From: a virus
IMG/VR virus record: IMGVR_UViG_3300002052_000007
Coordinates: 1-44,761 of that record
Strand: one strand, 5' to 3'
DNA: 44,761 nt
Shown here: positions 1-18,879 of the stretch, one piece after another
Layout: each line of letters begins with the position of its first letter
Position numbering within the stretch: the stretch's first letter is position 1
Position numbers and translations under genes: made by a program
Notes under the pieces: model-generated
The model's input: only the letters and a program-made list of their open reading frames with translations
Databases searched by the model: none
Told to the model about the DNA's origin: nothing

Positions 1-94
1 TTCATGACTCCCCTCACGGTTGATGTTGTCTTGCATGATAATAATATAAAAAATATGAACATCCTTGTCAATACCTTTTTTAAATTTCTCTAAA
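1..94. repeat. Left copy of 94-bp terminal direct repeat
   Basis: Bases 1-94 are identical to 44668-44761. The repeat starts inside the start region of the XRE-like gene and covers its promoter, so joining the ends gives a continuous, sensible promoter-gene arrangement. The simplest reading is a circular or permuted genome assembled with an overlap, giving a 44,667-bp unique circle. A true short terminal repeat on linear virion DNA is possible but cannot be told apart from sequence alone. Confidence 0.95.
43..71 (-). promoter_or_regulatory. Strong leftward promoter of the XRE/recombination operon
   Basis: On the minus strand TTGACA (66-71) is followed by a 17-bp spacer and TATATT (43-48), a near-consensus sigma70 promoter. 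In the second terminal copy it is at 44710-44738, directly upstream of the XRE-like gene starting at 44672. The predicted leader is about 30 nt and carries a GAGGGG SD. Since genes from 44.7 to 37.3 kb are all leftward and mostly overlapping, this promoter probably feeds the whole recombination/replication operon. Confidence 0.8.
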
Positions 95-101
95 CAGAGG
101 G

Positions 102-128
102 AGAGCGTTGCAAAGATAGAGACAGAGC
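102..128 (+). repeat. Direct repeat A (GCGTTGCAAA-type), left of attP-like core
   Basis: The word AGCGTTGCAAA followed by a GACAG word 10 bases later is found here and again at 301-325, in the same orientation, on either side of the tRNA-like core at 191-210. The arrangement resembles arm-type integrase sites. The AGAGCGTTGC part also occurs inverted at the late promoter (6055-6080), so a regulator-binding site is the alternative. Confidence 0.55.
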
Positions 129-190
129 TTTCAGATATTGAACTGCTAACAGGCAGCAATCAGGACAGTTAAGTTTTGTCATTTATTTTT

Positions 191-210
191 TTCGAATCCC
201 ATCGCCCCGA
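191..210 (+). other. attP-like core: 3' end of a tRNA(Pro)-type gene
   Basis: These 20 nt fit the last 20 positions of a tRNA: a T-loop (TTCGAAT), the 3' strand of a T-stem (CCCAT), the 3' acceptor strand (CGCCCCG) and discriminator A, followed by T6. An acceptor stem of CGGGGCG paired with CGCCCCG and discriminator A is typical of tRNA(Pro). No 5' half is present upstream, so it is not a working tRNA. Phages integrating into tRNA genes carry such a 3' fragment as the att core. No integrase is recognisable in the window, so the call stays tentative. Confidence 0.55.
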
Positions 211-233
211 TTTTTTATTTTACAGGGAAAGAG

Positions 234-266
234 CTTCTACCCCTGGGGAAATTCGTTTTGTAGAAG
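234..266. other. Inverted repeat between attP-like core and repeat B
   Basis: CTTCTAC (234-240) pairs with GTAGAAG (260-266), enclosing a small CCCCTGGGG palindrome. It lies between the tRNA-like core and direct repeat B and may be a protein-binding or transcription-ending structure. There is no clean U-tract on either strand, so I do not call it a terminator. Confidence 0.35.
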
Positions 267-300
267 TCCCTCTTTGTCCCCTTCCTGGCCCGAAAATCTA

Positions 301-325
301 AAAAGCGTTGCAAAAATGGTGACAG
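301..325 (+). repeat. Direct repeat B (GCGTTGCAAA-type), right of attP-like core
   Basis: Second copy of the motif at 102-128: AGCGTTGCAAA, then a GACAG word 10 bases later. It sits immediately downstream of the stop of the RHH gene that ends at 328. See the copy at 102-128. Confidence 0.55.
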
Positions 326-327
326 TT

Positions 328-519
328 TTACTTCTCAATTCTGATTGTAAAATCCTTGCCGGAGTCCATCTCTTCAAGGAACCATTCCATAATCCTGACC
401 ATCATCTCTGTAAGAGTCATCCTGTTTTTCTTGGCAATCTTCTTAACCTTTGTCTTCAGGTGTTTCTTATCTTCCGGCAGCCGAAGGACAATATCGGGAT
501 TCATTTTTTCTCTGACCAT
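328..519 (-). CDS. Arc/CopG-type ribbon-helix-helix-like small protein
   Basis: 63 aa. The pattern of a short strand (PDIVLRLP), a Lys-rich helix and a second helix (LTEMMVRIMEWFLEEM) fits the ribbon-helix-helix DNA-binding fold seen in Arc, CopG and many phage regulators. The ATG has a good SD (GGAAGG). It is the last gene of the leftward early operon, next to the attP-like/promoter hub, so a role in controlling that hub is plausible. The operator is not known. An antitoxin role is the alternative, but no toxin-like partner is adjacent. Confidence 0.6.
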   Translation of the reverse strand: MVREKMNPDIVLRLPEDKKHLKTKVKKIAKKNRMTLTEMMVRIMEWFLEEMDSGKDFTIRIEK

Positions 520-533
520 AATTCACCTTCCTT

Positions 534-773
534 TCAAATATTTACATCATCCTCTGGATTCCAATGAGCAAGAGACTCGATGAACCTAGAGAACACCTCT
601 TTATAATAACTTGAGTTTGGATTAACATCTTCGACATTCGCCATTCTTCCTGCTGTGTGGATCTTTACTATTTTTCCCTTCCAATAGATAGGCGGTTGAC
701 CAGGAAGGGCTTCGTTCACCCTAACAATTTCGCCAACCTGGAATCCTGTTTTTGTTTTGTAATGGTGATCCAT
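534..773 (-). CDS. Small early phage protein, unknown function
   Basis: 79 aa, with strong SD (GGAGG) before the ATG and its own promoter at 789-816. The middle (GEIVRVNEALPGQPPIYWKGKI) alternates hydrophobic and polar residues like a small beta-barrel of SH3/KOW type, followed by an Asn/Tyr-rich acidic tail. I do not recognise a family. Its private promoter suggests strong early expression, as for host-takeover proteins. Confidence 0.65.
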   Translation of the reverse strand: MDHHYKTKTGFQVGEIVRVNEALPGQPPIYWKGKIVKIHTAGRMANVEDVNPNSSYYKEVFSRFIESLAHWNPEDDVNI

Positions 774-788
774 GTTTCCTCCTTTATT

Positions 789-816
789 ATTATACTAATA
801 ATTATCAGCCTGTAAA
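789..816 (-). promoter_or_regulatory. Early leftward promoter P1 (TTTACA-16-TATAAT)
   Basis: On the minus strand TTTACA (811-816), 16-bp spacer, TATAAT (789-794), then an SD and the ATG at 773. The -35 and the first half of the spacer (GGCTGATAATT) match the promoter at 3666-3693 almost base for base. Spacer conservation beyond the sigma70 hexamers suggests an additional regulator site. Confidence 0.8.
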
Positions 817-825
817 CCTCCTTTG

Positions 826-1026
826 TTAAACTTGTGCAAACAAAGAAAACCTGTCGTCCTCGATCAGCTCGATATGTTCCAGGCATAGCCAAAGATATAC
901 ATTCCTTCCATCCCTGAACTTGAGGACGAGGATCTTTTTGTGTGCCGATTTATAGCAGTCCGACACACAGCACATAGACTTAGAGTTTAGGTTTGTGTGC
1001 TTAGCCAAGTTGTCCTCCCTTGTCAT
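826..1026 (-). CDS. Small Cys-rich early protein
   Basis: 66 aa. It carries CC-x3-C-x3-H and a later C-x2-H (LCLEH), a set of ligands that could bind zinc. The ATG at 1026 overlaps the TGA of the upstream 52-aa gene (ATGA), indicating translational coupling. An internal Met just before the Cys cluster is an alternative start. Unknown function; one of many small metal-finger-like proteins here. Confidence 0.6.
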   Translation of the reverse strand: MTREDNLAKHTNLNSKSMCCVSDCYKSAHKKILVLKFRDGRNVYLWLCLEHIELIEDDRFSLFAQV

Positions 1027-1181
1027 TCCTCAACGGAGAACTGATACCCGAAATGATCTCCGTCTCTTTCTTCCTCGGGAATAAAGGTCTTGATAAAATT
1101 CTCCAATTCTTCGATGAAACTCTCGACCTTTACGCCTTCCCGTAAGTTAAGCCACAGGTCATCAAAGATAACCGTTGCCAT
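1023..1181 (-). CDS. Short acidic protein, 52 aa
   Basis: Reads MATVIFDDLWLNLREG through to a GYQFSVEE C-terminus. It has an excellent SD (AAAGGAGG) seven bases before the ATG and couples to the next gene by an ATGA overlap, which makes it convincing despite its length. It is acidic, with an amphipathic helix (ESFIEELENFIKTF). Unknown function. Confidence 0.7.
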   Translation of the reverse strand: MATVIFDDLWLNLREGVKVESFIEELENFIKTFIPEEERDGDHFGYQFSVEE

Positions 1182-1196
1182 GAAATCCTCCTTTGT

Positions 1197-1277
1197 TTAA
1201 TTTTCTTTGCTCATCTCCCACGTTGCCCATATAATGACGACACAGAAGATGACCACACCGCCCATGAGTATCGGCAT
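1197..1277 (-). CDS. 26-aa single-span membrane peptide
   Basis: Reads MPILMGGVVIFCVVIIWATW then EMSKEN. Nearly all of it is one hydrophobic helix with a charged C-terminal tail. The SD (AAAGGAG) is good and the spacing to the next gene is 15 bp. Membrane micro-proteins of this size in phages can tune lysis or affect host membrane functions; here the role is unknown. Confidence 0.55.
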   Translation of the reverse strand: MPILMGGVVIFCVVIIWATWEMSKEN

Positions 1278-1307
1278 TTTCTCACTCCTTTAAAATCTAA
1301 CGTGTTA

Positions 1308-1490
1308 TTATTTAATTTCATCCACCTCCCAGGAATGAGGACACTCCGGGAAATCCTTTTCCATTGCCTCGCTCATGTGTGGCATACTGGCAAATGGACA
1401 GAAAAATTTAAGAATCAATTCGCACTCAGCCTGCCATTGATCCTCACATCTAGCAAGAGGACAGACCATTTCTTTTTTCTGTTTTTCCAT
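1308..1490 (-). CDS. Small Cys-rich protein, 60 aa
   Basis: Has five Cys and two His (CPLARCEDQWQAEC, then CPF and CPH), consistent with a small zinc-binding protein. The SD is moderate (GTGAGGAT). It lies directly downstream, in the direction of transcription, of the structured non-coding tract at 1513-1758. Unknown function. Confidence 0.5.
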   Translation of the reverse strand: MEKQKKEMVCPLARCEDQWQAECELILKFFCPFASMPHMSEAMEKDFPECPHSWEVDEIK

Positions 1491-1512
1491 CTAATCCTCA
1501 CTAAATTTTATT

Positions 1513-1758
1513 TTGCCTTTAGGCAATCGCTTGAACCTTCGAGTGATCGAAGACTCAAGAGAGAGCCTAATGGCTCCCATCTGACCTGTAACAAGCCTTG
1601 CTTAGTTATCAAGGGATAACGCAGATCAGTTTGACAACTTGTCCCAACAGCACCGTAAACGGTAACTGGCGACCCACCCCGAAAGGCCCGACTAATCAAC
1701 ACGACTCGGGAGGATATTGCCTCAGCTTATCAACTGAGATCAGCTTGTCAGAGATCAT
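1513..1758 (-). ncRNA. Hairpin-dense non-coding tract, candidate structured RNA
   Basis: About 245 bp without a credible gene but with successive perfect short hairpins, several with four-base loops: 1513-1526 (TTGCC/GGCAA), 1537-1552 (CTTCGA/TCGAAG, with an outer TTGA/TCAA), 1563-1576 (GAGCC/GGCTC), 1605-1620 (GTTATC/GATAAC), an ACCG/CGGT stem near 1652, a CCCGA/TCGGG stem near 1687-1710 and CTCAG/CTGAG near 1720-1738. It lies between two leftward genes, so it would be transcribed leftward as leader or processed RNA. It matches no RNA family I can name. Confidence 0.4.
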
Positions 1759-1764
1759 GCAGTT

Positions 1765-2232
1765 TTATTTTTTGTCAGACTGACCGGAACTGACACGCAC
1801 TTTCGCAGATCGCACGCCCTGTTTACTCTGGACAGGGAAAGCACCCCGACTTTCCGGAGCGTCATCAAGCATTACTTTTTCCGTCTTTAACGCTCGAACA
1901 CCACGACGTTGAGAATGTTTAGAGAAGTAAGACTCAACGTCCACTCTCAAACGATGAGCCTTTATGTATGGAGGGACAACGCCCACACATAGGAGGATAC
2001 CTTCCGGCAACCCCTCTATAATCCCATAGAACTTAAGCATAAAATCAGAGTCATCCAACTTGCAGTAATATCTATTGTTTGCCCTATATATATATGGACA
2101 GTTTAGGCAAGCCTGTTTAAATCTGGATAGATCAGGATAGATGATATATTTAACGTATCCATTCCGCTTGAGTCCTTTAGAGGACTGAATCACAAACGGT
2201 TTAGGTAACTGAAAATTGCAATGTTTACGCAT
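1765..2232 (-). CDS. Unknown early protein with Cys pair
   Basis: 155 aa. It has a C-x2-C (ACLNCPYIY) and a later Cys (YYC) in the first half, then a basic Ser/Arg/Lys-rich tail from about residue 105. The only SD-like sequence, GGGGA just before the ATG, sits inside the right arm of a perfect hairpin (2235-2251), so translation may be gated. It follows the ArdC-like gene in the operon. I do not recognise the family; the basic tail suggests nucleic-acid contact. Confidence 0.6.
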   Translation of the reverse strand: MRKHCNFQLPKPFVIQSSKGLKRNGYVKYIIYPDLSRFKQACLNCPYIYRANNRYYCKLDDSDFMLKFYGIIEGLPEGILLCVGVVPPYIKAHRLRVDVESYFSKHSQRRGVRALKTEKVMLDDAPESRGAFPVQSKQGVRSAKVRVSSGQSDKK

Positions 2233-2234
2233 AG

Positions 2235-2251
2235 TGTCCCCATAGGGGACA
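2235..2251 (-). promoter_or_regulatory. Hairpin sequestering the SD of the 155-aa gene
   Basis: TGTCCCC (2235-2241) and GGGGACA (2245-2251) are perfect 7-bp arms around ATA. In the leftward mRNA the 3' arm GGGGACA ends two bases before the ATG at 2232 and contains the only SD-like GGGGA. A second pair, GGACA/TGTCC at 2268-2280, lies in the end of the ArdC-like gene. Confidence 0.5.
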
Positions 2252-2259
2252 AGCCACCC

Positions 2260-3171
2260 TCAGAAGAGGACAGCTTGTCCCTTCATTTTTTGGGAGACCT
2301 CAACTTTCTCAAGTAAAGGATAGACTTTCCTCAGAATCTTGTCGGCGACAGAGATAATCTTGATCGAGTGTTCCTTGACCTTTTCTTTCGTCCCGTTCCA
2401 ATGCCCTAGATAATACTTTGCCCCTTGATTATCTAGCCCGATACATGCCCCGACAATATAAGCGACAGACTCCGCTTGTAATTCCCTCTCATCTCTAGGT
2501 GTAACTTTATCGTCCTTTTCCTCTGGATGCCCTAGCAGGACATGAGCTATCTCGTGAAGATAACAAGCCACTTCTTGAGCCTTATTCTTTCGCCTGGATA
2601 GGACAATTTTCTTGCCGTTAGTGTATCCATCCTGGACGCCCTGAGAGTATTCGACCGGAACATCAAATTCAGAGGAAAGAAGATCGACCGTCAGAGAGTC
2701 GGAACCTTTAACGAGAGTGTTGCCAATATCAAGATCATCCCCATCCGTTTGAGAATAGTCGAACACATGAACCGGAATAAATCCTGTGATAACTTTCTTT
2801 TCGTATTCGTCTTTAACTTCCGGTTCGTCATCCTCTGATGTATCATCGGAGACAATCTTCTTGAGGACATACTTGGAAGAGACCATCGGAGCCAGTATCC
2901 AGATCGCTTTACTTCCCTTCTTGACATACCGCCCGACTCTTTTCCATTGATTGAACCCTGCAACCAAAGAAAACTCTGGACACTGAGACCAAATAAGGAA
3001 AAGGTTAGACAGCGAATAATTATGAAACCCTGACCGCCAACGATCAGCGAACATCCTCAACTTTTCCTCATCTGTCACAATCTCACTTGTCAAATCCTTT
3101 AATTGAGACACCAAGAGCTTTTTCCGCTCTTTCTTGCTGAGACTTTCTTGTTGAGTCTCAGAGCCTAACAT
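2260..3171 (-). CDS. ardC: ArdC-like antirestriction protein (ssDNA-binding domain plus zinc metallopeptidase)
   Basis: 303 aa. The N-terminal half (about 15-140) has the pattern of the ArdC N-terminal ssDNA-binding domain, including a Trp/Lys-rich stretch (FNQWKRVGRYVKKGSKAIWILAP). The C-terminal half has an HExxH zinc site (HEIAH 206-210, continuing VLLGH) and a third ligand E234 (ELQAESVAYIV), as in ImmA/IrrE-type metallopeptidases. ArdC proteins from plasmids and phages protect incoming DNA from restriction. A charged insert (109-125) separates parts of the N-domain. Its start overlaps the upstream stop by 7 nt, so the two genes are coupled. Placement behind promoter 3666-3693 suits early anti-defence. 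Antirestriction activity is inferred from the family. Confidence 0.8.
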   Translation of the reverse strand: MLGSETQQESLSKKERKKLLVSQLKDLTSEIVTDEEKLRMFADRWRSGFHNYSLSNLFLIWSQCPEFSLVAGFNQWKRVGRYVKKGSKAIWILAPMVSSKYVLKKIVSDDTSEDDEPEVKDEYEKKVITGFIPVHVFDYSQTDGDDLDIGNTLVKGSDSLTVDLLSSEFDVPVEYSQGVQDGYTNGKKIVLSRRKNKAQEVACYLHEIAHVLLGHPEEKDDKVTPRDERELQAESVAYIVGACIGLDNQGAKYYLGHWNGTKEKVKEHSIKIISVADKILRKVYPLLEKVEVSQKMKGQAVLF

Positions 3172-3635
3172 TTAGCACCCCCTAAAATTTTATTTGACCT
3201 GTCATCCTCAGAGTCGGAGAGGTCAACCACCGACTGAGAGAGGACTTTTGTCCCCTCTTTCGACTGGAGAATCTTTCGCCACACGACCGGATTAAGCCAG
3301 GGATCAAGATCAAATATCCCTTGACCAAATGCACGATTGCTTTTTGGGATAATGAGATCACCGGAAAACCTGTCCATATAAATGTAATTCCGGGTGTAGT
3401 GATGTTTGAACGCAACAAAATTGCCTAAGAAATTCATAAACATGAACTCACTAGCCGAACCTATGCGGCCAACACCATCGGAAGTATCAAGAACCACCGA
3501 CTTCAAAGACTGATCGAACATGGAAAAGTACAACCGGAACAACCCAAGCGAAAGATTGACGCATTGAATAGAGTCACGAAACGTGACCACATCCCGAGTG
3601 AATGAAGGAATTGAAATTGTTTCCGACATTTTCAC
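3165..3635 (-). CDS. Unknown early protein coupled to ardC-like gene
   Basis: 156 aa, first gene of the unit behind promoter 3666-3693. SD GTGAGGTG before the ATG. The sequence has mixed hydrophobic strands and aromatic residues (FVAFKHHYTRNYIYMDRF) and a Ser/Asp-rich C-terminus. I see no diagnostic motif. Coupling to the ArdC-like gene makes a shared anti-defence function a reasonable but untested guess. Confidence 0.65.
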   Translation of the reverse strand: MKMSETISIPSFTRDVVTFRDSIQCVNLSLGLFRLYFSMFDQSLKSVVLDTSDGVGRIGSASEFMFMNFLGNFVAFKHHYTRNYIYMDRFSGDLIIPKSNRAFGQGIFDLDPWLNPVVWRKILQSKEGTKVLSQSVVDLSDSEDDRSNKILGGAKC

Positions 3636-3665
3636 CTCACTTTTAAATTTTTTTCCCTCAAGTCA

Positions 3666-3693
3666 ATTATATCACAAATTATCAGCTTGTAAA
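3666..3693 (-). promoter_or_regulatory. Early leftward promoter P2 (TTTACA-16-TATAAT)
   Basis: On the minus strand TTTACA (3688-3693), 16-bp spacer, TATAAT (3666-3671), then the ATG at 3635. The block 3677-3698 is nearly identical to 800-821 at promoter P1, including the spacer half GCTGATAATT. Confidence 0.8.
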
Positions 3694-3779
3694 CCCCCCT
3701 GATAAAAATATTTTTGGAGTGAGGAAAAATCCAGGAAAGATCAGAAAAAAAATCAAGATCAGAGACCGGACCCCCATCC

Positions 3780-4172
3780 CCCCGCGCACGCGCATTAAAA
3801 AAAATGATTAATGTTTTTTTATTTTATTTTTTTATTTTTTTATTATTTTTCTTTATTTTTTAATCACCCCAGGAAATATTAATTTAATTATTTTTTTATA
3901 TTTAATTTTATTTTCTGAAAATTCGCCCCCATTAAATAGGACTATCCTATTTAATAGAGCCTTATTTCCTATTTTTCACACCCCTCCACAACCCCCCTAT
4001 TAAATAGGATTATCCTATATAATAATTAAGAGCCTCAACTAAAGGGAGTATATCCTATTCTTCTAGTAGTGTCCTATTTAATAAGATATTCCTAGAAGAT
4101 AAGATATATCTATATTTATAGGCTTTCTCTTATTTCTAGGTATGTCCTATTTAAATAGGAATATCTTATTGC
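3780..4172. other. Candidate replication origin: AT-rich tract with palindromic repeats
   Basis: No gene is visible from 3636 to 4483. From 3795 to 3910 there is an extreme T-tract (repeated TTTTTTATT words), as in a DNA-unwinding element. It is followed by repeats of TCCTATTTAAT and its complement: a perfect 11-bp-arm palindrome at 3931-3955, a near-perfect one at 3998-4024, a single half-site at 4072-4080 and a perfect 16-bp palindrome at 4145-4160. A 13-bp inverted pair (4080-4092 and 4158-4170) encloses the last block. This architecture fits an origin or a multi-site regulator region. Confidence 0.5.
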
Positions 4173-4351
4173 ATTTTTTTTTCTTATTTCGTTTCCACTT
4201 AAAATTAAAAGGCTACCGCAAAATTTATTTATCTTTACTTTTCTTGACCCCTCTATCGCTTATAACTCCCTGATTTATCAATAACTTAGGAAATATTATG
4301 TCGCATAATAGTTATTATGTAAACTCTCCCCCTAATTTAAAAAAGCTGCCC

Positions 4352-4422
4352 TGCATACGGGGGAAATCGCTCGATCCTGGGGGAAAATGGGGCTTTTTTC
4401 CGAGACCCCCCTTTGGTATGCA
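4352..4422. other. Long inverted repeat with G-tracts downstream of the A-rich block
   Basis: TGCATAC (4352-4358) pairs with GTATGCA (4416-4422), with G5 and C6 tracts just inside. The word GGGGGAAA recurs at about 4359, 4379 and 4470. Since leftward transcription from 5.9 kb reaches this point, it may end or weaken that transcript before the candidate origin. Confidence 0.4.
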
Positions 4423-4483
4423 TCCTCCCTAGCTCTGTATTTTTGATATTTTTCTATTTAAGGTTTTTTTGGGGGAAAATTAA

Positions 4484-4681
4484 TTATTTTTTTAATTTTG
4501 GAGGCCAGGAATAATTTAATTCTTCAAATAATTTTTGCCAGAAATTTTCAGCAGTCATATTTTTCAGGCAATTTTTGCAAAAGGCGTAATCATTTCCAAT
4601 CATCCCTATGGCAATTCCAATTCTAGGGATAAGCATATTTTTTTCGCTTCCACAAAAAAAACAATTTAATTTTTCTTCCAT
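4484..4681 (-). CDS. Small zinc-finger-like protein
   Basis: 65 aa with two Cys pairs (CFFC at 8-11 and CKNC near 35-38), the usual four-ligand arrangement of a zinc ribbon, and an aromatic C-terminus (NYSWPPKLKK). SD GAGGAAAA precedes the ATG. It is the last gene of the very A-rich leftward block. Function unknown. Confidence 0.65.
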   Translation of the reverse strand: MEEKLNCFFCGSEKNMLIPRIGIAIGMIGNDYAFCKNCLKNMTAENFWQKLFEELNYSWPPKLKK

Positions 4682-4700
4682 TTTTTCCTCTATTTTTTAT

Positions 4701-4937
4701 TTATTTCAGGAGGAAGTCTTTAAATTTTCTTTTTTTAAATTTAATAAAATAGCCTTTTTCGTTGTAGAGGGTGCCGTCGAAGGTGTATCTGAGGATTTTC
4801 CATTGGAATAAAAGAATTGGGAGATTGGGGTTTGAGAATTTTTGTTTTTTCAGATTAATTATTTTTTTTTCGAGTGCTTGTCTGCCGATTAATTTCCAGT
4901 AGATATATTTTCCGAGGAGATTAAAATTAATTTTCAT
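4701..4937 (-). CDS. Lys/Ile-rich small protein
   Basis: 78 aa, strongly basic (Lys-rich) with aromatic residues. The start overlaps the previous gene's end by 11 nt and has no clear SD, so it may depend on translational coupling. The coding strand is exceptionally A-rich, which inflates Lys, Asn and Ile, and open frames are easier to find in such DNA. Moderately likely to be real because it packs tightly into the operon. Confidence 0.45.
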   Translation of the reverse strand: MKINFNLLGKYIYWKLIGRQALEKKIINLKKQKFSNPNLPILLFQWKILRYTFDGTLYNEKGYFIKFKKRKFKDFLLK

Positions 4938-5112
4938 TTTTTATTTTTTTTAATCCGTCAGCAAGGTTTTTACTTTTGATGTTATAGATGCTAAAGAAAA
5001 CAGCGTTTGGGTCTTTTTTCAATAATTTTTTTATTTTTTTGTATTGTTTTCGGATTTTTTTCATTTTAATTTTATCGGGAAAAATATTGTCGTCGATTAT
5101 TTTTTTATTCAA
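4927..5112 (-). CDS. Lys-rich small protein with TTG start
   Basis: 61 aa starting at TTG with a good SD (AGAGGAG). About a quarter of residues are Lys, with Lys/Ile-rich helices. Unknown function; possibly nucleic-acid binding by charge alone. Same A-rich composition as its neighbours. Confidence 0.5.
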   Translation of the reverse strand: MNKKIIDDNIFPDKIKMKKIRKQYKKIKKLLKKDPNAVFFSIYNIKSKNLADGLKKIKNEN

Positions 5113-5142
5113 TTTATTTCTCCTCTGTATTTTTAATTTTTT

Positions 5143-5346
5143 TCATTTTAATTTTTCCCGTGTTCTTCTGGCGGATTCTTTTATTTTTATAAATTCTTCT
5201 TTAATTTTTTTTATTTCATTGGCTGTGTAATTGTGATGGACAGCTCTCAGGGTATTTTCTATTTTTTCCAGAAAGATAATTATTCCGACGTTCCGAAAAT
5301 ACCTTACAAAAAAGTCTTCGTCACTATTAATTAATTTTTCTTTCAT
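5143..5346 (-). CDS. Helical charged small protein
   Basis: 67 aa, predicted mostly helical (EKIENTLRAVHHNYTANE, then a Lys/Glu helix). Start overlaps the preceding gene by 20 nt. No family recognised. It belongs to the A-rich early block. Confidence 0.5.
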   Translation of the reverse strand: MKEKLINSDEDFFVRYFRNVGIIIFLEKIENTLRAVHHNYTANEIKKIKEEFIKIKESARRTREKLK

Positions 5347-5527
5347 CTAATTTTTTTCCGCAGAAGGGGCAGAAATTAATTTTTTGAGGTTCTCCTTTTT
5401 CGATGATAACCATTCTGTAGAAATTTTCATCCATGAACATAGTGACGGTATCTCCGAAAATCCACCAATTTTGAAAATCCTCGCAGCAAAATTCAGCTTC
5501 TATTAATTTTCCTGTTTTTTCTTCCAT
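5327..5527 (-). CDS. Small zinc-ribbon-like protein (CC ... CPFCGKKL)
   Basis: 66 aa. A CC pair near residues 14-15 and a C-terminal CPFCGKKL knuckle form a four-Cys site. CPFCGKKL is a typical zinc-ribbon half that I know from many small phage proteins of unknown role. Strong SD (AAGGAG). Confidence 0.7.
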   Translation of the reverse strand: MEEKTGKLIEAEFCCEDFQNWWIFGDTVTMFMDENFYRMVIIEKGEPQKINFCPFCGKKLDERKIN

Positions 5528-5540
5528 TTTTTTCTCCTTT

Positions 5541-5747
5541 TTAATTCCACCAAATGTATCCCCCCGGCTCCCAGGTTATGTGAATCAGGTGACTAAGGCA
5601 CTCGTCGCAGCAGAAACCGTGCTTAAAGGCCGTGAGATTGTCGATCTTGGTCCTTCTCTTGCAGAGAGAGCAGACATGGCTCATTTCCTCGAGCTGGATC
5701 TCCCTGATCCTTTCCCTGAGCTTCCGGATTTTCTCTTTCTCGTCCAT
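5541..5747 (-). CDS. Small zinc-finger-like protein, first gene of leftward operon
   Basis: 68 aa. A charged N-terminal helix (residues 1-20) is followed by CSLC and CCDEC pairs, a zinc-finger-like layout ending in an aromatic tail. The ATG has no SD. Its first 14 bases (from just before the ATG) are repeated exactly 139 bp upstream, at the predicted transcription start, with a hairpin element between. An ancestral gene may have begun almost at the promoter and been separated from it by insertion. Confidence 0.6.
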   Translation of the reverse strand: MDEKEKIRKLRERIREIQLEEMSHVCSLCKRRTKIDNLTAFKHGFCCDECLSHLIHITWEPGGYIWWN

Positions 5748-5888
5748 TTTATAGGCAGTCGGGGAGGCCGTCTCTTAAGAAGATCATAAGACAAAGCGTC
5801 CTTTTAAGCCAGAAATACTGGCAAAGCCAGAGACAAGGCGTCCCGACCTTCCGGCCTCCCCACGTTTTAAGGGTTTTCTCGTCCATTT
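5736..5888. mobile_element. IR-bounded element between 14-bp direct repeats (possible MITE-like insertion)
   Basis: The 14-bp sequence TTTCTCGTCCATTT occurs at 5736-5749 and 5875-5888. Between them is a GC-richer segment bounded by perfect 10-bp inverted repeats GGGGAGGCCG (5761-5770) and CGGCCTCCCC (5852-5861). Inside are further small stems (CTGGC/GCCAG around 5810-5840) and a repeated GACGC-TTGTC word. Direct repeats outside inverted repeats are the signature of a transposed element, although 14 bp is long for a target duplication. It encodes no transposase and forms the 5' leader of the leftward early operon. An RNA regulatory leader is the alternative. Confidence 0.45.
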
Positions 5889-5894
5889 GATCTA

Positions 5895-5922
5895 AGTATA
5901 TCATAGCATTTTTTTTTGTAAA
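5895..5922 (-). promoter_or_regulatory. Early leftward promoter P3 (TTTACA-16-TATACT)
   Basis: On the minus strand TTTACA (5917-5922), 16-bp A-rich spacer, TATACT (5895-5900). The predicted start falls at about 5888, on the edge of the upstream 14-bp direct repeat. It drives the A-rich early block. It shares -35 and spacing with P1 and P2 but not their GCTGATAATT spacer. Confidence 0.75.
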
Positions 5923-6025
5923 CACCACAAAGTATTGACATGGAAGGCAATGGTTTTTTTCATCAATATATAGTAGCAAATAAATGACTTAACACACCAT
6001 ATAGCACTAGAAGGCAAGCAAAAAG

Positions 6026-6054
6026 TTGACAATAATATTTTTTGCACCTATATG
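6026..6054 (+). promoter_or_regulatory. Late rightward promoter (TTGACA-17-TATATG)
   Basis: TTGACA (6026-6031), 17-bp spacer, TATATG (6049-6054), 43 bp before the terminase small-subunit start. It is the only convincing promoter at the head of the 31-kb rightward operon. Consensus -35 with imperfect -10 suggests an activatable or repressible promoter. Confidence 0.65.
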
Positions 6055-6080
6055 TAGAGACAGCATGAGCAACGCTCTAT
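6055..6080 (-). promoter_or_regulatory. Operator-like site at the late promoter
   Basis: On the minus strand AGAGCGTTGC matches the core of repeat A at 102-128 and lies over the predicted start of the late transcript. TAGAG at the left and CTCTA at the right make the segment partly symmetrical. A shared regulator acting at the 0.1-0.3 kb hub and at the late promoter would explain it. Confidence 0.4.
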
Positions 6081-6096
6081 ATATGGTGGTGCGAGA

Positions 6097-6651
6097 ATGA
6101 TATTGATGGTTGGCGATATGCCAGTTATCGTCGACGGGAGGGAACCTGTACCCCGGGTTTACCGCTTTCACCTCAAGAAAAAGAAGGATTGGAAGAACAA
6201 AATCGAGAACAAACCCTTCTCAAGGCTCGATTCCAGGCAACAGAAGGCCCTTCAGCTCTATAAGGCTTCGGGGTGTGACGAAAGCAAGAAGGCCGAAATA
6301 GGGAAGATGGTAGGTTATTCCCCTGGATATGCTCGTCAGGCCATGGATAAACTCTTGAAGAGGAAGAAAATCCAGAAGTTGCTTGATAAGAGGGCGCCAG
6401 ATACGAAGATCGCCAACGAATTAACGCGTCTGGCCTTTGAATCTGAACATCCGCTAAGTAAGGTCGGAAAGCCAGATAATTCAAATCGGCTAGGCGCACT
6501 CAAAGAGATCAACAAGATCAAAGACAATTATCCTCCCAAGAAGGTGGATATAAGGGCCATAACCGCAAATATCGACCTCACACCAGCCGATCATGCTGCT
6601 TATCAGCAGTTCCTTGATTTGAGGATGGAGGAGGATGAACAAGGGGATTAG
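6097..6651 (+). CDS. Terminase small subunit-like protein
   Basis: 184 aa. Residues about 45-105 carry a helix-turn-helix of the TerS type (KKAEIGKMVGYSPGYARQAM, then LLKRKKIQKLL), in which the DNA-binding helices precede an oligomerisation region. It is first in the late operon and overlaps the large subunit by 17 nt, the standard terminase order. TerS recognises the packaging site and recruits TerL. The SD is weak and several in-frame ATGs follow within 25 bases, so the start is uncertain. Confidence 0.75.
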   Translation: MILMVGDMPVIVDGREPVPRVYRFHLKKKKDWKNKIENKPFSRLDSRQQKALQLYKASGCDESKKAEIGKMVGYSPGYARQAMDKLLKRKKIQKLLDKRAPDTKIANELTRLAFESEHPLSKVGKPDNSNRLGALKEINKIKDNYPPKKVDIRAITANIDLTPADHAAYQQFLDLRMEEDEQGD

Positions 6652-8287
6652 AGGGCTGCCGCCAGAGCTTCCTTCCTTACGGGGAAACGAACAATGGTGG
6701 ATCCACAAAATCCTAACAGATCTCTTTTTCGTAAACAAAGTCGTCCTTCACCACGGAAAAAAGAAAGAATACCGGGACCTGAATTGGGTCCATAAGAAAC
6801 TTTGCGATTTCATCCAAAAGCACCCCAACATCCAAAAACTCGTCCTCATCTTCCGTGACGGGCTAAAAAGCTCTATTGCCAGGGGAAAGCTCATCCAGTG
6901 GTTCCTTAAGAAACGCTATAAGAGGGAAAGGGGAAAGGCGTTTATGTACTGCGGAATCGCTGACCTGGCTGAAGACCACCTGGACAGGGTATGGAAAGAG
7001 CTTGTCAGCAACAAAATCATCCAATACCTTTTCAACGATTGGATGGAAGATAATGAGCTGGCCCCTCTTATACCCAGGAAAAAGAGTGATTTCGAGTCTT
7101 GCTCTCACGACAAGGGTATCCGGTACAAGGGGATAGAGATAGACATAGGATCCCCCGAGAAGTCGCTAACCGGGCATCACTACGAGCTTGGTATCAACGA
7201 CAACTTGGTAAACGAAAAAAACTCCGAATATTCCGAACAGAGAGCAAAGATTGTTAGGAGGTGGCAGGCACAGGAGCCAATCCTGGCAGAAGACGCAGAG
7301 GAGATCATCTTCGAAACTACATGGTATCCTGATGATCTTTCAGGAACCGTTCTCCACCCTGAGGGCAAATATGATTTCCGTCAGCTGAAGGGCAAGGTCG
7401 CCCATGTATTCGAAGCCGATTCAGGCTATTCTGTCTTTTACTGTCCGGCAGAAGACGCAAAAGGAAACCCCGTATTTCCAGAGAAAGTCGATCGGAAGTA
7501 CCTAGACAGAAAAAGGGCGAAGATGGGATCCTACCTGTATTCTGCCCTCTATCTCCTTCAGCCCGTCGCGGATGAGGATGTCATTATCAGGCGCTCATGG
7601 ATTAAGAATTTCATTGAACTCCCCGATCCATTCGTTAGAAACCTTGTCATCGATATGGCAGGCACGAAAGGAAGGGGAAGCTCATATACGGGAGTATCTT
7701 TCGGTGATTGGTCAGCCGACAGAAAACTTCACCTTCCCTGGGCAGATAAAGATAAACTCAGTCCATTAGAGGTCGTCTCTTGGATCATAAAGATCATTCT
7801 TTGGTCTAAGAATAAACTGAAACGCCCTGTATCGAATATCGGAATCGAGAACGAGAAGTATGGGATATTTCTTTATGAACACCTGACAATTCTCGAGAAA
7901 GTAAAGAAGAGGTTCGGTATTAATGTTTTTCTTTTGAACCAGGATTCTCTGGACGGGACGATTAGAAACTGCCCATCCGACAGGAAAGTCGAAGACCTCG
8001 TACCTAAATACGAACAGGGATTGATCCTCTCGGCAAAGGGGATGAAGGAGTATGAGGATGAGGTCACTTCTTTTTACAAGGGGAAACTTAAGGGAACGGA
8101 CATTCTCCATACCATCTTTTATCACTTCAAACTTGAACACATGTCCATTCCGAAGAAGGTCGAAAAGGCTGTTTTAGAGCCTTGGCGCCAGGAGGTTGTT
8201 CCCTGCGATCCAACTTTTCTGAAACAGCTAAAGGCTGACCAAGCTCAGAGAAGGCATCGTTACGACCAAGCGGCAAGTATGTTTTAG
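6635..8287 (+). CDS. terL: Terminase large subunit (packaging ATPase-nuclease)
   Basis: 550 aa, strong SD (GGAGGAGG). An N-terminal ATPase region has a Walker A-like stretch (FRDGLKSS, about 74-81) and a later GINDNLVNEKNS segment aligning with the usual DDLVNE Walker B region, where the second acidic residue appears to be Asn. The C-terminal RNase H-like nuclease begins at about residue 336 (VIDMAGTKGRG, with D340 as a likely metal ligand). TerL pumps DNA through the portal and cuts it. The Asn may be a real variant or a misalignment; the overall call rests on length, domain order and the TerS-TerL-portal context. Confidence 0.85.
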   Translation: MNKGIRGLPPELPSLRGNEQWWIHKILTDLFFVNKVVLHHGKKKEYRDLNWVHKKLCDFIQKHPNIQKLVLIFRDGLKSSIARGKLIQWFLKKRYKRERGKAFMYCGIADLAEDHLDRVWKELVSNKIIQYLFNDWMEDNELAPLIPRKKSDFESCSHDKGIRYKGIEIDIGSPEKSLTGHHYELGINDNLVNEKNSEYSEQRAKIVRRWQAQEPILAEDAEEIIFETTWYPDDLSGTVLHPEGKYDFRQLKGKVAHVFEADSGYSVFYCPAEDAKGNPVFPEKVDRKYLDRKRAKMGSYLYSALYLLQPVADEDVIIRRSWIKNFIELPDPFVRNLVIDMAGTKGRGSSYTGVSFGDWSADRKLHLPWADKDKLSPLEVVSWIIKIILWSKNKLKRPVSNIGIENEKYGIFLYEHLTILEKVKKRFGINVFLLNQDSLDGTIRNCPSDRKVEDLVPKYEQGLILSAKGMKEYEDEVTSFYKGKLKGTDILHTIFYHFKLEHMSIPKKVEKAVLEPWRQEVVPCDPTFLKQLKADQAQRRHRYDQAASMF

Positions 8288-8295
8288 GAGGAATT

Positions 8296-8568
8296 ATGGA
8301 TGCGACTATTCTCTTTTTCATCGCCCTCATCGTGACAATTTTAGTCCTTGGGGGGGTAATCGTCTTTCTCGTCATCTACCATCAAAAGGAGAAGGAGGAA
8401 ATTTTCAATCGCTACATGTGCAAAGACTTCGGGGAGTATCAATACAACAAATTGGAGTATCCAGAATTTGTCGAGATGAAGAAAGAGGCCCTAAAGCAAA
8501 AGATGGATAAAGAAAAAAATATGACCGAAGCGGAGAGAAGGGCAAAAGAGGCAGCAAAAAGTTTTTAG
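8296..8568 (+). CDS. Small single-span membrane protein in packaging module
   Basis: 90 aa. An N-terminal transmembrane helix (residues 4-28) is followed by a charged cytoplasmic-type helical tail. Strong SD (AGGAGG). Sitting between TerL and portal is unusual for a membrane protein, and its role there is unknown. Confidence 0.65.
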   Translation: MDATILFFIALIVTILVLGGVIVFLVIYHQKEKEEIFNRYMCKDFGEYQYNKLEYPEFVEMKKEALKQKMDKEKNMTEAERRAKEAAKSF

Positions 8569-8577
8569 GAGAATTGA

Positions 8578-10533
8578 ATGGCTGAAAAACCCATCCTGAT
8601 CAAACCGCAGCAGCAATCCCCCGATCAGAGGGAAGCCGTTGAAGAGTCTGAATACTATTGGGAAAAGCATCCCGTAGTCACGAATTATTTCCCCTACTGG
8701 AAGGAGTACATCGCCTGGTTCTACGGAAATCAGTACACATGGGCAAACATGGATTCAGGGATACTTGAGGACATATCTAAGAAGGTTGACCGGGAATACA
8801 AGAACGTCTATAACCGAATCCTGCCAATGATCCGGCAGCTTTGGGGGGAGATTTTATACCTTCATACGTTTTATGTCGAGCCCAATACTTCTCAATCAAA
8901 AGATGTCAAAGCTGGCAAGTTGGGGTCCAGGGCCATTGAATACACGAATCTGAACGGGAAATTCCTGTTCAAGCTCAATCACCACGCAAAACTTTGGGCA
9001 TTGGTCACAGGAAACGTCTATTGGAAAGAGTTTTGGAACAAGCATCTCGAGGGAAAGATAGACGATGGAAAAGGAGGAGTGACAACGCAGCCGGGAGATG
9101 TCGATTTCAATTATGTCAATCCTTTCCTGGTAAGGGCAGACCCTTACGCAATCGAAAGGAAAAATCAGAGATGGGTCATAGAGGGACAGGAGCTTCCAAA
9201 AACATCGGTTGAGAGGATGTTCAACCTGAGTCCGGACAGCCTTCCTGCAGACAGGCTGAAGGTTGAAGACGTTGATCTTCTTGCCATGGGTCACAAAAAG
9301 CCGGAAAAAGAGGAAACGGTCATCCTTATGAGGAGATATTGGAGACCCATGGATAAATGGGAAAAGGGCAGATACATGGTAACAGCAGCAGGCTGCATCC
9401 TCTATGACAATGCAAGCCCTGTTCCTAATGCTGACCTTCCGATTATCCAAATCCCAGGGATCCTTCCAATCCTGAATCAGCAGTATTACGACAGCCCTGT
9501 AAGGATAGCGCAGCAGTCGCAGCGTCAGCTTAATAGATTCGGTTCAATCATAGATAGCCATATTGAAAACTACAGGCTGAAGGGCATGATCCCAAGGGGA
9601 TCACTCGACCCGGAAGAATTTGAAAGATATGTCCGGGCGGATGTTGAATATGTCATATACAATCCCACAGGAGGGGGAAATCCCTACTGGCAGCAGCCTC
9701 CTGCACTTCCAGAGATAATCATGCGCTGGCTGATGTTCATGGAGAATGAGATTGAAACAGAAACCTCAGTAAGAAAGGTTAGTTATGGACAGCTACCAAA
9801 ATACGCTCAGAGGGCATCAGGTGTGCTATTCGAGCGAATGAAGGGGCAGGACGTAAGCGTTCTTGTGCCGACTGTGGATGCCATAGATGACGCCATGAAG
9901 GACGCCATGACAATAAGGCTGAAGCTGATGCAGAAGCATTACAAGGAACCTGGAAGGCTTATAAGGACAACAGGGAGAAGCAGACAGACGGTAGAGATAT
10001 TCCTGAAGGACACAGATCTTGAGAACAACACAGATGTCCGGGTCCAGAGTGGAGTGGACTTCTTTTCTCAAAGGCAGGAGAGGAAAGAGGCGATTGTTTC
10101 TCTGGCAAAAGAAGGCTACATAGCAATGGACGAGGCTTTGGAGGCAATGGAATACAAAGGACTTGAGGAATTGACAGAAGAGAAATTCATCGACCGCAGA
10201 TACGCATACAGGATCATTGACCTCATAAGAGAAGGAAAGCCTGCGCCCGAAGTAAGCGAAGACGACAACCATCAGGTTCACTACGACATTTACAACACGG
10301 AAAGGAAAAAAGAAGAGTTCGAGCTTTGGGGAGAGGATGCAAAGGCAAAACTGATGACTCGCATCGCCGAGCATAAAAAATATATACCAACGATAGGGGA
10401 AGAGCCAATAGAAGAGGGGGAGGTTCCCCCTGAAGAGACAACCGCAGCAGCTCCCGCTGAGATCGCACCTACAGCAGAGGAGCTAATAGCTGCTATGGCC
10501 CTTGGACCCGAAACCGAAGCAGGAGGATATTAA
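8578..10533 (+). CDS. Portal protein
   Basis: 651 aa, follows terminase and precedes scaffold and capsid, the canonical portal position. Features that fit podovirus-type portals are an early aromatic-rich clip/wing region (YWKEYIAWFYGNQYTW), a long central alpha/beta region, and a helical C-terminal part (ERMKGQDVSVLVPTVDAIDD, then VDFFSQRQERKEAIVSLAKEG). The C-terminus is acidic and Ala/Glu-rich. Twelve copies would form the DNA channel at one capsid vertex. I infer the P22-like size class from length only. Confidence 0.85.
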   Translation: MAEKPILIKPQQQSPDQREAVEESEYYWEKHPVVTNYFPYWKEYIAWFYGNQYTWANMDSGILEDISKKVDREYKNVYNRILPMIRQLWGEILYLHTFYVEPNTSQSKDVKAGKLGSRAIEYTNLNGKFLFKLNHHAKLWALVTGNVYWKEFWNKHLEGKIDDGKGGVTTQPGDVDFNYVNPFLVRADPYAIERKNQRWVIEGQELPKTSVERMFNLSPDSLPADRLKVEDVDLLAMGHKKPEKEETVILMRRYWRPMDKWEKGRYMVTAAGCILYDNASPVPNADLPIIQIPGILPILNQQYYDSPVRIAQQSQRQLNRFGSIIDSHIENYRLKGMIPRGSLDPEEFERYVRADVEYVIYNPTGGGNPYWQQPPALPEIIMRWLMFMENEIETETSVRKVSYGQLPKYAQRASGVLFERMKGQDVSVLVPTVDAIDDAMKDAMTIRLKLMQKHYKEPGRLIRTTGRSRQTVEIFLKDTDLENNTDVRVQSGVDFFSQRQERKEAIVSLAKEGYIAMDEALEAMEYKGLEELTEEKFIDRRYAYRIIDLIREGKPAPEVSEDDNHQVHYDIYNTERKKEEFELWGEDAKAKLMTRIAEHKKYIPTIGEEPIEEGEVPPEETTAAAPAEIAPTAEELIAAMALGPETEAGGY

Positions 10534-10796
10534 TGGGTGAAATCCAAGAATTTGTTAACATCAAGGAAATCGCAGACCTTTTAAACTACAGCGTTGACGA
10601 GATCGAGGAGCTAATGGAAAGGAAGCTCATTCCTTACCATACGGACCTGGAAATTCTGACGCCTACGGGTGTTAGATTTTACAAGCTAGCCTTCCCGAAA
10701 CAGGTCGTTCTTTCTCAGATCAAACCAAGAGAAAAGAAGAAGGTCGCAAAAACAGCAAAGAAAACGGAACCTAAAAAAGAAGAGGAACCGTTTTAA
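10533..10796 (+). CDS. MerR/excisionase-type winged-helix small protein in capsid operon
   Basis: 87 aa. Residues 7-55 (NIKEIADLLNYSVDEIEELM, then RKLIPYHTD) match the helix-turn-helix-17/excisionase pattern, followed by a Lys/Glu-rich tail ending EEEPF. Its ATG overlaps the portal stop. A DNA-binding protein between portal and scaffold is unexpected; it might act on packaged DNA or regulate late genes. Its EEEPF end resembles the SSB-tip motif of the replication proteins in this genome. Confidence 0.6.
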   Translation: MGEIQEFVNIKEIADLLNYSVDEIEELMERKLIPYHTDLEILTPTGVRFYKLAFPKQVVLSQIKPREKKKVAKTAKKTEPKKEEEPF

Positions 10797-10821
10797 AAAT
10801 TTCTAATAAAGTGAGGTAAAC

Positions 10822-11910
10822 ATGGGAGAAGAGACTGCCAAAAAGGAACAGACTGAAGAGTCGTCCTCTGAGGAACAGACAGATAAGTCGTCTAAATTTG
10901 GTGGCTTAAAAGGCGCTCAGGACGCCTATATTGAGTCCATAAAAAAGACTCAAGAGGCAAAAAAAACTGAGCAAAAAGAGGAAGAAGACACCTGCATTGA
11001 ATGTTCGGCTTCAGAGGAGGAGTTGAAGGTCGAGAAAAAGGCCGGAAAAGAGACATTAAAGCCACAGTTCTTTATCGCTACCGAGGACGGGAAAATTCTC
11101 AAGCCCTTGGTGGGGAAGGCTCGAGGAAAGGATTATATTCCAGACAGCGAGGAGAAACTTCAAGCCTGGCTGAATCTAGGAATCGTCTCAGACGAAGAGC
11201 TTTCAGCGATCAAAAAGGAACGGGAAGAGATGGAAAAGGTCAAGCCCTTCATTGAAATAATCACACAAGCCCACAAAGAAGGAAGGCTGGTGATTAAGGA
11301 CGATGAGGAGCAGGGGGTAAAGAAGGAAGAAGAAACAGAAGAAGAGGAAGACACAGAATACGTTGATCCCAAAGTCAAGGAGCTAAAGGATAGGCTTAAA
11401 GAGCTGGAGTCCAAATTGGATAAGGGAGAAAAAGAAAGGGAAAAAGAAAAAGAGACTCAGCTCAAGGCTTTCATAGAGGAACACAGAGGAAAGATGAAAA
11501 AGGAAATGGAGGACTTCAGGGCAGAAAAGTATTTCGGTGCCGATATTTATCTTGACGATAAGCCGGAAGGAATCCCTCTTAATGTGTGGGATCTAATGGC
11601 TGCCTTGGACGAGAAGGGAGAGCCGAAATACAGCCTTGAGGAAGCCATGAAGATTTCTCATGAAAGCCAGTTGAAATTCATTGAGAAGTTTTTAACCGAC
11701 CATCCAGACGCTATTCCGAAAGTTAGGGATAAGATTATAGGGCAGCATTACAAAGAGAAGGAAACAAGGGAAGAAGCTCCCGAAGGACCCCCAGGAGAAA
11801 CCCCGGCCATTCCGAAGAAAGAGAAGCCTAAAGTTAAGGGCCTCCAAGACGCAATCGACCAGTTCAACAAATACTACAAAAGCAAACAGAAGGCAGGTGA
11901 AGCACACTAA
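10822..11910 (+). CDS. Scaffolding protein
   Basis: 362 aa, very rich in Glu and Lys with long predicted coiled coil (about 150-235), immediately before the major capsid gene. That composition and position are typical of phage scaffold proteins, which shape the procapsid and then leave. The C-terminus (KVKGLQDAIDQFNKYYKSKQ) is a basic helix, like the coat-binding end of P22-type scaffolds. No protease motif seen, so a fused maturation protease is unlikely. Confidence 0.75.
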   Translation: MGEETAKKEQTEESSSEEQTDKSSKFGGLKGAQDAYIESIKKTQEAKKTEQKEEEDTCIECSASEEELKVEKKAGKETLKPQFFIATEDGKILKPLVGKARGKDYIPDSEEKLQAWLNLGIVSDEELSAIKKEREEMEKVKPFIEIITQAHKEGRLVIKDDEEQGVKKEEETEEEEDTEYVDPKVKELKDRLKELESKLDKGEKEREKEKETQLKAFIEEHRGKMKKEMEDFRAEKYFGADIYLDDKPEGIPLNVWDLMAALDEKGEPKYSLEEAMKISHESQLKFIEKFLTDHPDAIPKVRDKIIGQHYKEKETREEAPEGPPGETPAIPKKEKPKVKGLQDAIDQFNKYYKSKQKAGEAH

Positions 11911-11928
11911 TTTCTAAGGAGGTCAGAA

Positions 11929-13188
11929 TTGGCTTTTACAGTTGAAGACGAAGATAAACTCTTCGAAGATTTTCTGACGCCCGGAGTTGAGGAAGAGATA
12001 CGGCAGGAGTCGAAGCTGTGGGATCAGGTTGATTTTTCGGACGATCTTGAAATGGGTGGATATACATTCCGCCAGAAGGTCAGGATCAAAACATCACAGG
12101 CAGCAAGGGCTTCTAATGTTGACGATTATCCTTCAGCTCAGGAATCGACACCAGCAGAGGTTCTTGGTTACCTGAAACGATCAATGATGTTCGCTCTCGA
12201 GTTCTCGGGATTCGCTCTTGAGACGGCCTTGAAGAAAGGGACGGGAGGCGCGATGATGGCTCCGTTCCAGTTCGAGGAAAGCGGAATCATGATCACGGTC
12301 CGGGACGACCTTTCTCGTCAGCTAATGTGGGACGGCTCTGGAAGGCTTTGTCAGGCCAAAGGAGCAGGCTCTACATCACCTACGCTTATCGTGGATAGCC
12401 CTTATATGAAAAAGCAGCCAACAAAGTTCCTGAAGGAAGACAGGGTGATCGACGCATACGACCCCGCGGACGACAGCCACGACATCAACAGCATTGCGAT
12501 AAGCACGGTTGATTCCGAAACCCAGGTGACGCTTGAGTCAAATCAGACCTGGGCAGACGACTGCTGGATCTACAATGAGGACGTTTGGCGAAAAACAGAG
12601 GCAGCCGGAAAGGGTGAGATGATGGGTCTTTTGGGGATCTGTTCCGATGCAGACCCGCCAACAGGTGCGCTACAGGGATTGGACGTTTCTACCTATCCTA
12701 TGTGGAAAGCATGGGTGTGGGGCAACGGTGGAACCCCAAGGCCGCTCAGTGAAGACCTGCTCATCCTTGCGGTCCAGAAAGCGAAGAAGTGGGGGAACAT
12801 CGAAAATATGTTCATGCTCATCACAGAAAAGATCGAAAGGGTCTGGATTTCGTATCTGAGGACCTACAAAGAGATCGACACAAACATTCTGTGGGGAGGC
12901 TGGCACGCAGTACCGTTTTACTATGGCGGCAAGCAGATTCCTATGGTCCCTGACGAGTACATCCCCGATGGAAAGATACTCGGGGGAGACAAGACAAAGC
13001 TGACTATCTATGTGACTCAGAAAGGAAAATCGGTCACATGGGAGAAAGGCTTGTACGGTGGTGGAAGGCTTCGCCAGCTCGAGGGTAAGAACAGGTACGC
13101 AGCTTACGGACACATCTTCGCCAATATGGGCGTCTCTGTGAGGAAAGCGTTCTTCCGGATTGATGACATTCAAGAGCCTGACGTTTAA
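11929..13188 (+). CDS. Major capsid protein (probable HK97 fold)
   Basis: 419 aa, starts at TTG behind a strong SD (AAGGAGG). It follows the scaffold and precedes a strong hairpin, as expected for the most abundant virion protein. There are regular Gly/aromatic-rich strands and a C-terminal segment (YAAYGHIFANMGVSVRKAFFRID) like the terminal strands of HK97-fold coats. It lacks an obvious N-terminal delta-domain, consistent with a separate scaffold. Confidence 0.8.
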   Translation: MAFTVEDEDKLFEDFLTPGVEEEIRQESKLWDQVDFSDDLEMGGYTFRQKVRIKTSQAARASNVDDYPSAQESTPAEVLGYLKRSMMFALEFSGFALETALKKGTGGAMMAPFQFEESGIMITVRDDLSRQLMWDGSGRLCQAKGAGSTSPTLIVDSPYMKKQPTKFLKEDRVIDAYDPADDSHDINSIAISTVDSETQVTLESNQTWADDCWIYNEDVWRKTEAAGKGEMMGLLGICSDADPPTGALQGLDVSTYPMWKAWVWGNGGTPRPLSEDLLILAVQKAKKWGNIENMFMLITEKIERVWISYLRTYKEIDTNILWGGWHAVPFYYGGKQIPMVPDEYIPDGKILGGDKTKLTIYVTQKGKSVTWEKGLYGGGRLRQLEGKNRYAAYGHIFANMGVSVRKAFFRIDDIQEPDV

Positions 13189-13200
13189 ATCTGAATAGAT

Positions 13201-13224
13201 GGGGAGGGGGATTATCCCCTCCCC
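13201..13224 (+). terminator. GC-rich hairpin after capsid gene
   Basis: GGGGAGGGG (13201-13209) and CCCCTCCCC (13216-13224) form a perfect 9-bp stem with a six-base loop just after the capsid stop. There is no U-tract, so it is more likely an attenuator or an mRNA-stabilising end that raises capsid output relative to downstream genes. Confidence 0.6.
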
Positions 13225-13242
13225 TTCAGGCAAGGGGGAGTT

Positions 13243-13650
13243 ATGAATCCGGAACGCTGTTTTGTAAAAGAGCTTCAGCTTATAGCACCAGGGGTATATC
13301 CGCTTTGGTTTGAGGATTACAAAAAATGGTTCTTGGTGAGAGACTATCATAGGAGAGTCCCGGGGATCACAGAATACAATCCGACTACCGGAAAGCATTA
13401 TATTGTTGAGCTTGTCCTTGAGGACGAACAAGGCAATCCCATACCCCTTGATGGAAGACTCCTTCATGCTCTAAGGCTTTTACGCTATGAGAAGTACACT
13501 TACAAGCTCAAAGAGCTTATCGATAGGAGAAAAGCCCCAAAAGAGAAGGAAAGAAAAAGAGCAAAGGAACAGCTTAATGAGCGAGCAAACGAGCTTCTCA
13601 AAATGGTGTATCGGCTGATGCACACAAAAACTTTTGACTTAGGAGGATAA
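13243..13650 (+). CDS. Small structural/assembly protein, unknown
   Basis: 135 aa. The N-terminal half is beta-like (GVYPLWFEDYKKWFLVRDYH); the C-terminal half is a long basic helix (RKAPKEKERKRAKEQLNERA). Good SD. Placement between capsid and decoration genes suggests a head-completion or capsid-associated protein. Family not recognised. Confidence 0.65.
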   Translation: MNPERCFVKELQLIAPGVYPLWFEDYKKWFLVRDYHRRVPGITEYNPTTGKHYIVELVLEDEQGNPIPLDGRLLHALRLLRYEKYTYKLKELIDRRKAPKEKERKRAKEQLNERANELLKMVYRLMHTKTFDLGG

Positions 13651-13651
13651 C

Positions 13652-14035: not shown

Positions 14036-14044
14036 AGCATGGAA

Positions 14045-14078: not shown

Positions 14079-14090
14079 AAGGAGGTTGAA

Positions 14091-14477: not shown

Positions 14478-14498
14478 AGATTTTATTTGGAGGAAAAA

Positions 14499-18341: not shown

Positions 18342-18369
18342 CACCAAAAGAGATAAGAAGGAGGTTTAA

Positions 18370-18822: not shown

Positions 18823-18831
18823 TAATTGCAA

Positions 18832-18867: not shown

Positions 18868-18879
18868 TAGGAATTTAAT

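Follow-up and report, generated by a model that had tools for sequence, protein, structure and literature searches.

An attP core of the tRNA-Pro(CGG) type and an integrase stub in a metagenomic phage that was probably once temperate

Mycobacteriophage TM4, a Cluster K phage, is non-temperate among temperate relatives and has lost its integration segment (PMC3203893). In TM4, as in the phage described here, the integration genes of a central segment are gone and a Xis-like gene has been kept (PMC3203893). In TM4, the integrase gene and attP are inferred to have been lost together, in a segment of about 3.5 kb (PMC3203893), whereas our phage retains attP and the tail of the integrase and also lacks the repressor gene. 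Phage D29, when compared with L5, is another lytic phage that arose from a temperate ancestor by deletion of a lysogeny segment (described in PMC3203893). Its 3.6-kb deletion took the repressor (PMC3203893), while the phage analyzed here lacks its integrase too. The Oenococcus phage OE33PA, as our phage in the reading proposed below, is virulent, with an inferred temperate ancestry and a damaged integration system (PMC6256464). It is a mirror image of our case, since its integrase and repressor are present and attP was not found (PMC6256464). Recombination at Ms6-type T-loop (class II) tRNA sites needs identity between the attP and attB cores; in Ms6, as in the phage described here, the T-loop TTCGAA from the 3′-end of a tRNA forms part of the attP core (PMC1762012). 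Ms6 uses a mycobacterial tRNA-Ala and has a functional integrase (PMC1762012), whereas our sequence has a tRNA-Pro(CGG) core that starts at the T-loop and no integrase. A literature search for phages with attP but without an integrase found no such paper, and TM4 appears to be the closest parallel. With TM4 as a near parallel and the T-loop cores of Ms6, the kind of event considered here is already known from cultured phages; what is special is its legible footprint and the host group.

The stretch of DNA analyzed (the window) is the 44,761-nucleotide virus record IMGVR_UViG_3300002052_000007. Its first and last 94 nucleotides (1–94 and 44668–44761) are identical and represent a single copy in the real molecule, a 44,667-bp circle. 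An independent and near-identical contig, IMGVR_UViG_3300027901_000016, spans the circle junction and shows no differences from window positions 1–1000. Elsewhere, this contig has about 61 extra nucleotides near 18266, and the patch at 36632–37209 is 84% identical, with about 111 nucleotides extra in the second contig. Two neighboring late-region genes share a 300-nucleotide duplicate (16788–17087 and 19150–19449, 71% identical). An AT-rich region of about 850 bp (3640–4480) has no evident genes. Partly palindromic repeats that resemble one another, TAGGACTATCCTATTTAATA and its variants, occur in it at 3937, 4005 and 4064, and it could serve as an origin or for partition. Phage records gave no megablast match to the first 20 kb of the window, and tblastn with the TerL and portal proteins gave distant matches only.

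Positions 191–210 of the plus strand read TTCGAATCCCATCGCCCCGA, followed by TTTTTTATTTT. This sequence is an exact tRNA 3′-end, consisting of the T-loop TTCGAAT, the T-stem strand CCCAT, the acceptor strand CGCCCCG and the discriminator A, and no tRNA gene surrounds it. ARAGORN detected no tRNA genes in the window, and the tRNA 3′-end geometry without a 5′ half described in a first-pass annotation of this DNA was confirmed. The 20-mer occurs once in the window, and no chance matches with up to three mismatches were found in 100 shuffles. When 84,980 prokaryote species genomes were searched, it was present in 18 stretches. Eleven of them lie in tRNA genes and, re-read in context, all 11 proved to be tRNA-Pro(CGG) genes that end exactly in the 20-mer, as expected of the tRNA(Pro) att core that had been proposed; the remaining seven stretches have no tRNA gene at the matching position. 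The 11 matches in tRNA genes come from MAGs labelled Aminicenantes or, in one case, Acidobacteriota. Within the class that was searched, the 20-mer is present in 11 of 142 genomes, as a single copy in each. The 31-mer composed of the core and the downstream T-run had no exact genome match. The same 20-mer ends a tRNA with a CTA (amber) anticodon, possibly a suppressor tRNA, at positions 3443–3522 of a 91-kb phage contig.

In the CP070750 chromosome the similarity continues for 41 nucleotides past the end of tRNA-Pro(CGG), and window positions 191–251 match at 82%. Over the host-like stretch at 211–251 (plus strand), 30 of 41 positions are identical to the CP070750 flank, compared with 5–16 of 41 in ten other genomes, and none of 20,000 shuffles equalled this value. 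Another Aminicenantia genome (G035) includes a phage contig, C214, with a terminase about 52% identical to that of the window and collinear genes. The 20-mer in their tRNA-Pro(CGG) genes, the CP070750 flank and the collinear phage contig in the class make it very likely that the phage host is an uncultured Aminicenantes bacterium. With window positions 1–20000 as the query, no prophage of this phage was found at the nucleotide level in the 11 genomes tested.

The profiles PF00589 and PF00239 produced no match in six frames at E ≤ 10 in either the window or the second contig, while the controls were positive, in agreement with the previous statement that the genome has no recognizable integrase. 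Next to the core, instead of an integrase gene with a match to either profile, there is a 27-codon stub alone, SKQRESVAKIETELSDIELLTGSNQDS, at 89–172 (plus strand), with a TAA stop at 170–172, 18 nucleotides before the core. Using a profile of eleven integrase tails of relatives, the stub ranked first among 1661 stop-terminated C-termini of the phage with E = 0.0023 (runner-up, 2.3), a somewhat optimistic value since the profile was picked after the stub had been noticed. The alignment is short, a single aligned stretch of 16 residues; for comparison, integrase tails of relatives end in ..EQRKGVAKIGEYFREFLPK (genome G033) and ..EQRRGVAKIEEYFGVLLPK (G012). With a profile covering the entire integrase the stub failed to stand out, ranking fourth (E = 3.1). 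Relative to the core, the stub sits where the end of the gene sits in relatives with an intact integrase, and its position beside the core is independent support for its integrase origin. To judge from the sequence, these last 27 codons are all that remains of the integrase in the window.

A nucleotide sequence from the integrase tail of genome G025, GTTGCAAAAATAGGGACA, matches the window at only two places when up to three mismatches are allowed (0.01 expected), both on the plus strand and both with two mismatches: at 107–124, inside the integrase tail, and at 307–324, on the opposite side of the core. These repeats, which like the stub at 89–172 had been overlooked in the first-pass annotation, are probable integrase arm sites. 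Similarly placed repeat pairs were found in G156, L125, L127 and, weakly, L138, and no significant pair was found in G161, G163 and L130. The integrated forms in G033, G025 and G012 have no repeat pair, and host DNA lies on the far side there.

The genes on both sides of the core were compared with those of relatives. A cro-like XRE repressor of 65 amino acids is encoded at 44475–44672 (minus strand; PF13443, 1.7e-7), its ATG at 44672 being window position 5 on the circle, and it is homologous to the head gene of the early operon in G156, G161, G163 and L138. The promoter of the cro operon, as read from the sequence of the minus strand (43–71; TTGACA at 71–66, 17 nucleotides, TATATT at 48–43), is intact. 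The excisionase-like gene that had been reported nearby was verified at 44257–44478 (minus strand), where an HTH_17 protein is encoded (PF12728, 2.5e-14; NCBIfam TIGR01764 "excise" above the cut-off; PHROG 66). Flanking attP, a predicted Arc-like DNA-binding protein (328–519, minus strand; PHROG 582, 8.3e-5) has a homologue at the same position in contig C214 of G035 (46%), and Arc-like proteins are also found there in G156 and L138. An ArdC-like antirestriction protein (2260–3171, minus strand; PF08401, 1.2e-10), with homologues in C214 of G035, G145, G161 and L138, served as a synteny anchor. When the cI-like proteins of the relatives were compared with the window, the only meaningful match was at the cro position, and the stretch that separates cro from the Arc-like gene holds no plus-strand gene of cI size. 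Repressors are a diverse group, and the genome may encode one at some other place.

The relatives were gathered by scans with alignments of the capsid and of the terminase large subunit (6635–8287, plus strand, in the window; PHROG 38, 1.5e-41), and their terminases are 40–56% identical. Three of them, G156, G161 and G163, have a tyrosine integrase in the interval that separates the cro-like gene from the Arc-like/ArdC side, with a tRNA 3′-end, a different tRNA in each, beside the integrase stop. Their integrases were used as queries and retrieved more integrases in Aminicenantia genomes and virus records; a tRNA 3′-end was located about 3–90 nucleotides from the integrase stop in all 15 integrase loci examined. 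A complete lysogeny arrangement in the orientation of the window was found in L138 (IMGVR_UViG_3300035659_001161), where the order is Exo, RecT, HTH_17, cro (6974–7168, minus), cI-like (7357–7593, plus), int (8001–9065, plus), tRNA core (about 9101), Arc-like (9238–9420, minus), ArdC and terminases. The window has the same order minus cI and int, and the distance from the cro start to the end of the Arc-like gene is 2070 nucleotides in L138 versus 323 in the window, a gap of about 1.75 kb. G156, G161, G163 and L138 thus share a complete lysogeny module at the place where the window has a stub. The module is also common to L125, L126, L127 and L130, which show no terminase of the window's family and therefore support the anatomy of the att region and not the phylogeny.

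The first-pass annotation had regarded a lack of host tRNAs with this 3′-end, or collinear related phages without the fragment, as evidence against an attachment core. Such a host tRNA exists. Some collinear relatives do lack the fragment (C214 of G035, G145 and G152), and these lack the integrase as well; a tRNA 3′-end is present at the place of the fragment in each of the relatives that carry an integrase. G152, which has no integrase, is 85% identical in its Arc-like protein and 65% in its terminase to the integrase-bearing L138, which suggests that the integrase was lost on separate occasions. The terminase tree is compatible with more than one number of integrase losses.

A related element provided an example of integration. 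Contig C141 of the Aminicenantia genome G033 has a complete tRNA-Pro(CGG) gene at 17270–17345, followed by an integrase gene at 19460–20521 and then a displaced 3′-end. An exact 28-nucleotide repeat, AGGGGTTCGAATCCCCTCGCCCCGACTT, at 17320 and 20553 bounds this 3.2-kb element. An attL/attR-type integrated copy at the tRNA was thus seen for the G033 element, and none was found for the window phage. The arrangement shows that an integrase of the relatives' family has used tRNA-Pro(CGG) in Aminicenantia, with a core whose T-stem is slightly different from that of the window core. Both G033 and G025 have an integrase with a tRNA-Pro-type core, and G012 has a decayed one. In the G012 locus the frame of the related integrase is broken by a TGA and adjoins a decayed tRNA-Pro-like core; it is another integration module going to ruin.

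We consider it highly probable that a temperate phage integrating at tRNA-Pro became virulent by loss of its lysogeny module and that its attP is a relic. The ancestor would have been a temperate Aminicenantes phage with a tyrosine integrase acting on the host gene for tRNA-Pro(CGG), at its T-loop/3′-end, and the copy of the tRNA 3′-end in attP would have restored the split host gene. Deletion of about 1.75 kb, spanning the DNA between a point immediately upstream of the cro promoter and the final 27 codons of int, would have cost the phage its cI-like repressor and some 92% of int, while sparing cro, the xis-like gene, the core of attP, the two arm-like repeats and the gene for the Arc-like protein. 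The putative junction is at about 89–92, with the intact cro promoter directly beside it. Having lost int and cI, the phage alone would be unable to integrate or establish repression and would be virulent. One deletion of cI and most of int is the simplest account, and we infer from the sequence both this single-deletion origin and a virulent way of life. The extent of the deletion and its being the only one are estimates, since none of the relatives found, which are 40–56% identical to the window phage in terminase, is a close sister that carries an integrase. The first-pass annotation had proposed that the phage integrates or once integrated. With an integrase stub and no cI-like gene, the second wording fits better than the first. 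Similarly, of a recombinase that is unrecognized, lost or supplied in trans, the lost one is supported by the stub, which has the cro promoter on one side and the core on the other; supply in trans is improbable.

The exact core and near-intact repeats could mean that the attachment site is still in use, with a prophage or satellite in the same cell, likewise specific for tRNA-Pro, providing the integrase in trans. The exactness of the core, the presence of both arm-like repeats, the retention of the xis-like gene and the integrases with tRNA-Pro-type cores in Aminicenantia just described are all compatible with this alternative. However, the T-stem of the tRNA-Pro cores found differs from that of the window core, an integrase alone would not suffice for lysogeny as no cI-like repressor was found, and a recent loss accounts for an intact site without selection. 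We therefore regard this explanation as unlikely, and it is likewise doubtful that attP is under selection in a phage lacking int and cI that enters tRNA-Pro(CGG) by borrowing the integrase of resident prophages.

Several small proteins of the phage have no family match, which leaves some room for an unrecognized recombinase in a phage that is still temperate. This is very unlikely because the PF00589 and PF00239 searches were silent, there is no unexplained mid-sized gene beside the core, and the position occupied by int in the relatives holds only the stub in the window. The 20-mer could also be what is left of a tRNA gene encoded by a phage, and not an attachment core, as the 91-kb phage does encode a tRNA ending in the identical sequence. 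We give this reading hardly any weight: the 5′ half is absent, the fragment lies beside the integrase stub and between the repeats, the similarity to the host flank continues past the tRNA end, and the ends of other tRNAs occupy the same place in the integrase-bearing relatives. Loss of the lysogeny module from a temperate ancestor remains the preferred explanation, and the remnants in the window (integrase stub, core, and xis-like and cro-like genes) give the phage the appearance of one recently turned virulent.

The attachment site ties a metagenomic phage to Aminicenantes, and the comparison suggests that one integrase family has several tRNA genes of Aminicenantia as its targets. In a class known here from MAGs only, the change from a temperate to a virulent life style would have left a legible footprint in the form of the stub, the core and the arm-like repeats. 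An attP without an integrase, in such a case, is better read as the sign of a missing module than of an unknown recombinase.
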